Origin: Bacteroidota bacterium
GTDB taxonomy: Bacteria > Bacteroidota > JABWAT01
Direction: 5' to 3'
Length of the DNA stretch: 64,000 nt
Assembly: GCA_017303995.1 (NCBI GenBank)
Contig: JAFLBE010000001.1
Span: 62,001 to 126,000 of the forward strand
Made by a program: the position numbers and the translations under genes. Below the pieces are notes generated by a model that saw nothing but the letters and a program-made list of their open reading frames with translations, did no database searches and was not told where the DNA came from. Shown here one piece after another: positions 13,944 through 17,622 of the stretch (position 1 is its first letter; each line of letters begins with the position of its first letter).

Positions 13944-14000
13944 GAATAAGTGATAAGTTATAAGTTACAAGTGATAAGTGATAGGTGGTCAGTGATATGT
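13944..14000. repeat. degenerate 7-8 bp tandem repeat (GTGATAAG-like)
   Basis: Head-to-tail variants of a short unit: GTGATAAGT, TATAAGT, TACAAGT, GATAAGT, GATAGGT, GGTCAGT, GATATGT. The same kind of low-complexity array, with different wording, fills other gaps: 11447-11481, 24786-24822, 27945-27985, 44605-44636, 47789-47830 and 47935-47972. Here it directly abuts the start of the DUF5686 gene, so it probably lies in that gene's leader. Confidence 0.55.
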
Positions 14001-14026
14001 GTTTCAAAGTTCGGGGCTGTCTAAAA

Positions 14027-14279: not shown

Positions 14280-14310
14280 TTTGACTAAAAATTAATTATA
14301 GTTACCTTTG
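14280..14310 (+). promoter_or_regulatory. Bacteroidota-type promoter of the metalloprotease gene
   Basis: TTTG at 14280-14283, 19 bp, then TACCTTTG at 14303-14310: an exact match to the Bacteroidota -33 (TTTG) and -7 (TAnnTTTG) elements at the usual spacing. The surrounding 60 bp are strongly AT-rich. Transcription would start near 14316, giving a leader of about 30 nt to the ATG at 14347, with AAGGCG upstream of that ATG. Confidence 0.7.
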
Positions 14311-14358
14311 TTAAGGTTCCACAATAAAAGTATAAGGCGAAAAGAAATGAAACCGATA

Positions 14359-14380
14359 CACACACACACACACACACACA
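14359..14380. repeat. (CA)11 microsatellite in metalloprotease start region
   Basis: Eleven uninterrupted CA units directly after ATG AAA CCG ATA (14347-14358). With 11 units the ATG frame ends at a TAA at 14398-14400 after 17 codons. With 12 or 9 units it would read into the metalloprotease frame and supply the missing N-terminus of its signal peptide. Dinucleotide tracts of this length are prone to slippage. Confidence 0.9.
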
Positions 14381-14425
14381 ATTGCGAAATTCCTCCATAA
14401 AATTCAACTCTCTTTAACTGGCATT

Positions 14426-16651
14426 TTGCTTTTCGTTGTTTTTTTTCCGTCAAATGATGCAATCTCCCAAACCAGGGATGAATTTTGCCCCGATTTAAGT
14501 ACTTCCAGTCTGCCAAGAATAATTGCAAATCCTACCATGCAACAAAGAGGCAAGTTCAAACCGGCTATTACCGGTGAAAATCAATATTTCCGTATATTGT
14601 TTGTATTTGCCGAGTTTGAAGGAAACACCTATTCATCACCATCCTGGCCTTTAAATTCTTTACCGGCATGGGCAAACGATTTGATTGACCCGATTCCTGA
14701 TTCCTACCGACCACTTACCTTTTCAAAATTCTGGGATACCATGTCTATGGGGCAGTATGATGTAATCGGTGATGTTTACCCGACAATTGTTAAAGTGAAA
14801 AGTGAGGATTATTATGATACCGGTGGTTTTAATTTTACAGAAAGTAACCGCGATGTTTTTAAGGCATTAGATCATGACCCAAGTGTAAACTGGGCCAGGT
14901 ACGACAACTGGAAATATAATTCTTCAACAGATGCCTTTGAATTTTTGGCAGGTGCCGCAGACAATACGGTTGATATGATTTTTGTAATTTACAGGAATTC
15001 GAGATCAATGCCAGACGGAAGTGCAGGTTGGTTTACATCAAAGACAGGTTACAGAAATAATGTATGGTTTAATGTTGGCCACTTTGCAGGAATTGCAAGT
15101 CTTGGGGAAGGGCCCTTCCCTACCATCTATACCACAGATGATGGAAAAAACATAAATGCAACTTATTCCACTTTAGGAAGCGGTATTACAATTAGAAATG
15201 CTATCAATTATTCTTCAGCTTTTCAAATTAATGATCTTCTGGCACATGAATTGGGTCATTATCTGCTTGGAGAACATATTTTTAATTCTTATGGAATGAT
15301 GTCGGTTTACCCGGAATTAAGAGATGGTCAATTAAGTTCAATTGAAAGAGAAAAGCTGGGGTACCTGTCGTTTATTTATCAAACACAGTTGACTCAAACT
15401 TTTCCATTGCCCGATGTTCTCACTACCGGTTACGTTTTGAAAGTACCTTTTCCGCTAACTGTTCCGGGCGGTTACCCGAATTATGATTCAGACAAGTATT
15501 TTCTTATCGAAAACCATCAGAGAGTGTCACCGTTTAACCAAATAGCAAAACCAGGTGGATCAGCTAATCCTGCAGGAACCATGGGAAAAGGGCTTTATGT
15601 TTTCCTTGTCAGATACTCAGATAACTTAATTAAAAATGCGGATGGTTCATTTCATTGGTCTAATCCTGAAGGAGATACATACATTGGAACAGTGAAAGTA
15701 CCACTTTTAACAAAAACCGCGGTTTGGCGGGATGCATGTTTTGGTGACCGGAACTGGAATGATTTTCGTTATAACCCGGGTAGCGACTATGGTTATGCTC
15801 CTTTTCATGTCAAAAACCCACTTACCAAACAATGGGAATTAACCTGGGCTTGCTATGGTGATGATAAAGATGCCTTCAATCTGCACGGAACCAAAATATT
15901 TACACCATGGAGTAACCCAAGCAGTGCTGTAAGTATAAATGAACCGACTGGCTATTCTTTTGAAATTACTAACCAAAGTACACAATCAACAAGTATTAAA
16001 TTTTATATAGACCCAAATGATGGTTTGGCACTTGCTCCTTCCAAACCCCAACTTTTTAAGCTTTCTTCTGAAAATATGTCACCAAGGCTCAATTGGTCGC
16101 CCAATATCGAACCGGATATGAAGGATTATCGTATTTACAAAGCCGTGACAACTGGTACCGTTCCGACTTCATGGACTTTAGTTGCTACCGTTTCAAAAAC
16201 ACTTTCCACGTATCTTGATGAGGCCGTGACTGCTGGGAATTTAACGGAATCTAAAAAAATATTTTATACCATAAAGGCCAGGGATACTCAATTGAAAGAG
16301 TCTGAATTTTCTGACTATGACTGGTTATATTACAACCCTCAAATACAGAAAATCACAAACAGCAATGGAGACGAAAGTGACCTTATAACATCTTTCAGAA
16401 TAACCAAAGCCTTTCCAAACCCGTTTAACCCAACCTCCACCATTGAATTTACTTTGCCAGAATCAGGTAACGTCAGTTATGAGTTGGTGGATATTGAGGG
16501 GCGAATTGTCGTTTCTTCTAATCAAAATAGTTATCCTGTTGGTCGAAATACATTAAGCGTTATTGGTTCCCAACTTTCTAGCGGGATGTACCTGATTCGT
16601 TTGACTTTTAAAAATCAAATACAAACCCATAAATTATATTTACTTAAATAA
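14426..16651 (+). CDS. secreted zinc metalloprotease with T9SS sorting domain; 5' end frame-shifted at (CA)11
   Basis: Exported zinc peptidase with HELGHYLLGEH at about residue 272 (HExxH; the final His could be the third ligand), followed by the M-turn-like SYGMMSVYPELRDGQ. A Fn3-like module lies near 540-640 and a T9SS domain from about 661 (FPNPFNPTSTIEFTLPESG). The overall plan resembles M6-type secreted peptidases; the substrate is unknown. The coordinate given is the first usable codon (TTG), but the signal peptide is then truncated (MLFVVFFPSNDAISQ). In-frame sequence upstream reads AKFLHKIQLSLTGIL, a proper n/h-region with no start codon. The natural start is probably ATG 14347, one CA unit out of frame. 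In this assembly the gene looks phase-OFF. Confidence 0.85.
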   Translation: MLFVVFFPSNDAISQTRDEFCPDLSTSSLPRIIANPTMQQRGKFKPAITGENQYFRILFVFAEFEGNTYSSPSWPLNSLPAWANDLIDPIPDSYRPLTFSKFWDTMSMGQYDVIGDVYPTIVKVKSEDYYDTGGFNFTESNRDVFKALDHDPSVNWARYDNWKYNSSTDAFEFLAGAADNTVDMIFVIYRNSRSMPDGSAGWFTSKTGYRNNVWFNVGHFAGIASLGEGPFPTIYTTDDGKNINATYSTLGSGITIRNAINYSSAFQINDLLAHELGHYLLGEHIFNSYGMMSVYPELRDGQLSSIEREKLGYLSFIYQTQLTQTFPLPDVLTTGYVLKVPFPLTVPGGYPNYDSDKYFLIENHQRVSPFNQIAKPGGSANPAGTMGKGLYVFLVRYSDNLIKNADGSFHWSNPEGDTYIGTVKVPLLTKTAVWRDACFGDRNWNDFRYNPGSDYGYAPFHVKNPLTKQWELTWACYGDDKDAFNLHGTKIFTPWSNPSSAVSINEPTGYSFEITNQSTQSTSIKFYIDPNDGLALAPSKPQLFKLSSENMSPRLNWSPNIEPDMKDYRIYKAVTTGTVPTSWTLVATVSKTLSTYLDEAVTAGNLTESKKIFYTIKARDTQLKESEFSDYDWLYYNPQIQKITNSNGDESDLITSFRITKAFPNPFNPTSTIEFTLPESGNVSYELVDIEGRIVVSSNQNSYPVGRNTLSVIGSQLSSGMYLIRLTFKNQIQTHKLYLLK

Positions 16652-16740: not shown

Positions 16741-17622
16741 ATGAAAAAGCTGCTATTTCTTTTATGCCTGATACTTTTCTATTCCAATTTGTTTGCGCAG
16801 TTTGGCTTTAACTTCCCTTTAAAATCTGGAAATACCTGGGTCTATAATTATTATGACAGAATTTCAGGGGAGGTTTTGGGCGGTTATAAAATTTTGGTTT
16901 CTGATAGCATTTCTTTGGAAAACGGGTTTACTTATTTTAAAATAAATGACCCCGCATTTGATACGGGATATTTTTCATTTGTCCGAAAAGCAAATGACGG
17001 AAATTATTATTCATATGGGAATGGGGGGGTAGAGTTTTTAGAATTCAAACCAACTCCGGTTTCCGGAGAAAAATGGCAATGGGACTCTCAAATGGGTCCT
17101 GAATTTGATATTGATGTTAAAGTTACAGATATTTTTTATTCCGAGGTATTTGGGAATTTAAGTAAATTAATTGAAATGAGGTATGATTACGATCTTATTT
17201 CATTTATTAATTTATATTCTGAAAAATACGGATTATTGAAAAAAAGTATGTCTGAAAGTACCGAAAGTTCCAGTCTTAAAGGATGTGTTCTTGATGGTGT
17301 TGTTTACGGCGATACCACCAGAACAATTGTCGGGGTAAAACAAGAAACCCAAAAACCCAAACAGGTCATTTTGGGTCAGAATTATCCCAATCCTTTTAAT
17401 CCTTCAACAACTATTCCATTCAGGTTAATCCAAGCGGGTTCTGTAAAACTTTCAGTTTTTGATGTGTCAGGAAAGGAAATCCGGGTTTTAACTCAGGGTT
17501 TTAGAAGTGCCGGTGATCACCGGGTTACCTTTTCAGGTGACGATCTGCCTTCAGGCTTGTATTTAGTCAGGCTGGAAACCCAGAATCAGACTTTTACGAA
17601 AAAGATGATGCTGGTGAAATAG
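16741..17622 (+). CDS. small secreted protein with T9SS sorting domain
   Basis: Exported 293-aa protein with signal peptide MKKLLFLLCLILFYSNLFAQ. The central part (about 21-190) has no motif I recognise: beta-rich, with many aromatic residues (SGNTWVYNYYDRISGEVLGG; SYGNGGVEFLEFKP), reminiscent of small lipocalin-like secreted modules but not assignable. The C-terminal T9SS type A domain starts at about 210 (QNYPNPFNPSTTIPFRL) and ends FTKKMMLVK. It lies 89 bp after the metalloprotease gene in the same direction and may share its transcript if the hairpin between them is leaky. Confidence 0.83.
   Translation: MKKLLFLLCLILFYSNLFAQFGFNFPLKSGNTWVYNYYDRISGEVLGGYKILVSDSISLENGFTYFKINDPAFDTGYFSFVRKANDGNYYSYGNGGVEFLEFKPTPVSGEKWQWDSQMGPEFDIDVKVTDIFYSEVFGNLSKLIEMRYDYDLISFINLYSEKYGLLKKSMSESTESSSLKGCVLDGVVYGDTTRTIVGVKQETQKPKQVILGQNYPNPFNPSTTIPFRLIQAGSVKLSVFDVSGKEIRVLTQGFRSAGDHRVTFSGDDLPSGLYLVRLETQNQTFTKKMMLVK

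Follow-up and report, generated by a model that had tools for sequence, protein, structure and literature searches.

A (CA)11 tract between the start codon and signal peptide of a T9SS-sorted, M6-like protein is a candidate phase-variable switch in a Bacteroidota bacterium

In the window, a 64,000 nt stretch of a Bacteroidota draft genome, eleven CA units separate an ATG codon from a 766 codon frame encoding an M6-like T9SS cargo protein. This arrangement is probably that of a slipped-strand contingency (phase-variable) locus, of which the assembled consensus represents the OFF state; the number of units, n, would then vary within the population.

Organisation of the gene start

The features of the locus are as follows:

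14280..14310, + strand: Bacteroidota-type promoter, as a consensus match; TTTG at 14280-14283, 19 nt, then TACCTTTG at 14303-14310 (TAnnTTTG)
14334..14337, + strand: AAGG, Shine-Dalgarno-like in sequence, 9 nt before the ATG and followed by an A-rich stretch
14347..14349, + strand: start ATG, as read from the sequence
14347..14400, + strand: OFF product at 11 CA units, a 17 codon frame from the ATG encoding MKPIHTHTHTHNCEIPP, then a stop
14351..16651, + strand: open frame of 766 codons, with its stop at 16649-16651, encoding the M6-like T9SS cargo protein
14359..14380, + strand: (CA)11 tract, at which slippage is proposed to act as the switch, ON when n = 0 mod 3
14381..14470, + strand: long-frame stretch that encodes the signal peptide, IAKFLHKIQLSLTGILLFVVFFPSNDAIS/Q, from hydropathy and the ortholog, with no start before TTG 14426
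14426..14428, + strand: TTG, first conventional in-frame start of the long frame, which would leave MLFVVFFPSNDAISQ, with no charged n-region
15245..15277, + strand: zinc-protease motif HELGHYLLGEH, of which the HExxH and G are invariant in five aligned homologues
16412..16636, + strand: T9SS type A C-terminal sorting domain (PF18962, TIGR04183)
16741..17622, + strand: downstream T9SS cargo gene of 293 aa

The tract begins three codons (AAA CCG ATA) past the ATG, and in silico translation from this start is closed after 17 residues by the TAA at 14398-14400. The long frame is one frame off the ATG: it opens right after the TGA at 14348-14350, which overlaps the start codon, extends to 16648 and, on scanning the sequence, has no ATG, GTG or TTG upstream of the TTG at 14426. 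When the length of the tract was altered in silico, n = 9, 12 and 15 gave proteins of 766, 768 and 770 aa, all beginning MKPI(HT)nIAKFLHKIQLSLTGILLFVVFFPSNDAISQTRDEFCP; every other n between 7 and 14 gave 15-24 aa. The n, h and c regions of a signal peptide are visible in the long frame by hydropathy, and the ATG reaches them only at n = 0 mod 3. The earlier note's account of this region is thus borne out base for base as regards the (CA)11 after the ATG, the frame ending at 17 codons and the long frame lacking a usable start ahead of its signal peptide coding, whilst the simulations at n = 12 and n = 9 reproduce its proposal that the gain of one CA, or the loss of two, joins the ATG to the protease frame. 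The ribosome site that it placed before the ATG corresponds to the AAGG, and its promoter, of which the element TACCTTTG is 44 nt upstream of the ATG, holds as a match to the consensus.

In the proposed switch, the promoter at 14280-14310 would drive transcription and the ATG at 14347, presumably the start codon in use, would initiate translation, with replication slippage in (CA)n altering n. At n = 9, 12 or 15, the ribosome would translate a His-Thr n-region and carry on into an ordinary signal peptide, and the T9SS-sorted, M6-like putative metalloprotease would be exported; any other n, including the assembled 11, would lead to a stop within 15-24 codons and no protease. The population would consequently mix producers and non-producers, and the downstream gene may also be affected. 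As regards the criteria for SSR contingency loci, the repeat is longer than the genome background and lies in the 5' coding region, and a change in unit number switches between a truncated and a full product.

The encoded protein

The sorting domain scores 40.9 bits against PF18962 (cut-off 27) and 41.2 against TIGR04183 (cut-off 23), and the genome encodes the T9SS machinery protein SprA (TIGR04189, 1242 bits; cut-off 200). In common with the M6 family of T9SS-dependent metalloproteases (TIGR03296), the protein has an HExxHxxG motif and the sorting domain, together with weak similarity; however, its score against the M6 domain model is 21 bits, below the curated cut-off of 110.8, and a PDB profile search with the protein found no relative by sequence. 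Searching genome contigs for homologues returned only a distant match in Prolixibacteraceae, through the sorting-domain end (residues 604-756). On account of the HELGHYLLGEH motif and the weak M6 similarity, the protein is M6-like, and is not assigned here as a member of the M6 family. Of its previous description as a T9SS metalloprotease, the first part is upheld by the sorting domain and the HExxH motif fits the second, whilst the shortfall against TIGR03296 leaves 'metalloprotease', and enzymatic activity, as a prediction.

Repeat tracts within the genome

A pattern search of the whole 4.31 Mb genome found a single occurrence of (CA) with at least eight units, which is the tract at 14359-14380, and none of (GA) with at least six. 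In 1.37 Mb of the genome, AC runs of 6, 7, 8, 9 and 10 nt numbered 163, 54, 13, 1 and 1 respectively; beyond 10 nt there was just one, the 23 nt run corresponding to the window tract. By geometric extrapolation, about 3e-6 runs of at least 22 nt would be expected per genome. Since the tract is unique and its length falls off the distribution of AC runs, it is a non-random microsatellite grown through slippage.

No second locus of this kind was found in the same genome, in which none of the six G/C tracts of at least 10 nt is at a start codon. These tracts, of 10-13 nt, are found at C44:47631, C40:109581, C1:202873, C24:27281, C35:36000 and C51:21578; two, both G10, are close to ORF 3' ends, the others being intergenic, and the G11 of C1 is upstream of a gene with an ATG start and near a TAnnTTTG match. 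Intergenic 7 bp tandem repeats of 4-11 copies are also present, both in the window (13946-14001) and at L143, L081, L129 and L130, with up to 11 perfect copies and differing units.

Comparable loci elsewhere in the phylum

Tracts of at least ten CA units were detected in 12 of 394 sampled genomes from the phylum, being absent from the other 382; at a threshold of nine units, a scan of one other class found them in 19 of 391 genomes, and no other genome among four from the window's class had one. Two or more further lineages were found to have independent instances of the arrangement seen in the window. One is represented by a secreted protein in genome G437, the gene for which reads ATG AAA AAT ACC GTA A(CA)9 and then continues into a signal peptide, such that it is OFF at nine units and would be ON at 8 or 11. 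A paralog, 55% identical, has an in-frame G10 at the equivalent position; hence, of this pair (L205/L222 and L223), one is OFF with (CA)9 and the other ON with G10, each tract lying between the ATG and the signal peptide core.

The other is the genus g162, three species of which (genomes G364, G394 and G395) have at least 17 genes for secreted proteins with (GT)5-14 inside the signal peptide, following the pattern MTKAKTFSANR(VC)nYTLLFAMTLPALAQ. This paralog family has no Pfam match. Four of the 17 tabulated loci are in frame (ON) and 13 out of frame (OFF), a further copy with 16 units having been left out; one pair of orthologs, 98% identical, has 13 units in one species and 12 in another. 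Several copies of the family (L167-L187) are at contig ends, and more probably exist.

Genome G300 has a (CA)13 tract (L107:1501-1526) that splits an N6_N4_Mtase DNA methylase gene into parts of about 520 and 400 codons, which 12 or 15 units would rejoin into about 900 codons, making the gene a candidate phasevarion. Phasevarions, which are phase-variable DNA methyltransferases, share with the window locus a repeat tract in the coding region but differ in the type of gene; none of this type was found in the window's genome, G300 providing the example from the phylum. In G057 (L106 and L118), (TG)10 and (TG)12 occur at the matching site of two nearly identical segments, ahead of a gene with a signal peptide-like protein start, MSATQKIGLGLLLLTLSWSLYAW. 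Elsewhere in the phylum, many CA/TG tracts are intergenic or within 5' UTRs, and several of these lie upstream of exported proteins; tracts in these positions, or in frames closed by stops, were not counted as analogues. The look-alikes in G437, g162 and G300 encode proteins that are not related to one another and come from different families of the phylum; hence, so far as sequence can indicate, slippage of dinucleotide tracts at the starts of genes is recurrent in this group.

These loci bear on the main rival explanation, that the assembled 11 units are a consensus error for a fixed 12 (or 9), the gene being constitutively expressed with an odd His-Thr n-region. The genome is a draft in 127 contigs, assemblers make errors at repeat tracts and the ORF is fully intact. 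However, an error would leave unexplained the presence of a unique, long dinucleotide tract at exactly this site; at 22 nt, (CA)11 is well inside the length of a short read; and about two thirds or more of the look-alike loci are out of frame, which fits free slippage better than errors around an ON state. We therefore regard a consensus error as unlikely.

Orthologs and gene integrity

An ortholog in G001, a genome of the same genus, is 59% identical and begins with a plain ATG and the signal peptide MSLFAPPNPREICILTNFRSVVLSGLLSVTALNATMGQD, without a tract; hence the tract is not a conserved trait. Directly downstream of this ortholog, as in the window, is the 293 aa T9SS cargo gene, at 49% identity. 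G002, the other genome of the genus, has no full-length homologue, with matches only at the sorting-domain end, so the gene is dispensable, a point that might be taken to favour a recent and effectively permanent inactivation, in which the tract has slipped and the gene is heading for decay. Against this, there are 766 codons without an internal stop or other damage, with the catalytic motif and sorting domain both intact, and a CA tract of 22 nt is expected to revert often; permanent loss is accordingly rated as improbable.

Choice of start codon

Amongst 41 proteins with PxPFNP tails in the sampled genome, read by eye, 37 have an in-frame start, mostly ATG, before the signal peptide. The remaining four are L090, which has a GTG further upstream; L137, with a short signal peptide from an ATG; L144, with no evident signal peptide; and the window gene, the only one of the 41 to combine a clear signal peptide with no usable start. 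From this survey, the natural reading is that a frameshifting tract has come between the ATG at 14347 and its signal peptide.

Little credence is given to the alternative that translation begins downstream, at the ATT at 14381 or the TTG at 14426, with the tract affecting only the 5' leader. The peptide from the ATT, IAKFLHKIQLSLTGILLFVVFF, would alone make a good signal peptide, but ATT start codons are very rare; the TTG falls inside the signal peptide's hydrophobic core, and beginning there would remove the charged n-region. Furthermore, the other cargo genes of the genome have an ATG, or rarely a GTG, immediately ahead of the signal peptide, and the G001 ortholog likewise starts at an ATG. 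The (His-Thr) run of the 17 codon ORF gives it a superficial resemblance to his or thr leaders. It is extremely improbable that this ORF is a His/Thr-rich leader peptide governing the downstream gene through attenuation, since no terminator hairpin was called between 14310 and 14460, the RNA fold is weaker than that of shuffled sequences (z = +1.1), the following gene encodes a secreted protease and not an amino-acid gene, and the long frame would still be left without a start; this candidate was rejected.

Relationship to known systems and implications

Within this phylum, most of what is known of phase variation concerns the inversion of DNA. The examples from Bacteroides given in a 2025 review are invertible DNA segments (PMC11868660), hence they share with the window locus the phylum and an involvement in secreted or surface functions, but rely on inversion rather than repeat slippage. 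A closer likeness is to H. pylori, in which oipA has a hypermutable CT tract in the signal peptide region, the repeat number setting the frame and so the ON or OFF state (PMC10564699; PMC2715451), sabA likewise being a CT-repeat contingency locus. In these genes, as at the window locus, a dinucleotide tract in the signal peptide region of an exported protein determines the frame; they differ in having CT rather than CA tracts, and in encoding outer-membrane proteins of a gastric pathogen instead of a T9SS cargo protease of a Bacteroidota-type bacterium. Variation has been proven across isolates in H. pylori, whereas the window tract is known from one assembly.

The ON/OFF switch drawn in its OFF state by the earlier note is supported by the unique and non-random tract, the intact gene and its ortholog, the lack of an alternative start and the look-alike loci of the phylum. 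Its view that such a locus would be unusual stands in so far as no direct precedent for repeat-slippage phase variation in Bacteroidetes was found in the open-access literature; it does not extend to the sequences themselves, as comparable loci exist in the phylum. We lean, by a small margin, towards the view that the switching of exported proteins by slippage is genuine, recurs across the phylum and has largely escaped description, CA, GT or G tracts having been placed independently, in unrelated lineages, between start and signal peptide, with the window protease as one case. Where the assembled consensus reads OFF, genes of this kind will be overlooked or cut short by gene prediction.

If the switch is as proposed, a repeat-slippage mechanism would control a T9SS exoenzyme in a bacterium for which no adaptation to a host is known, and a clonal population would split into protease producers and non-producers, with a bearing on public-goods cheating, exposure to phage or predators, and polymer degradation.
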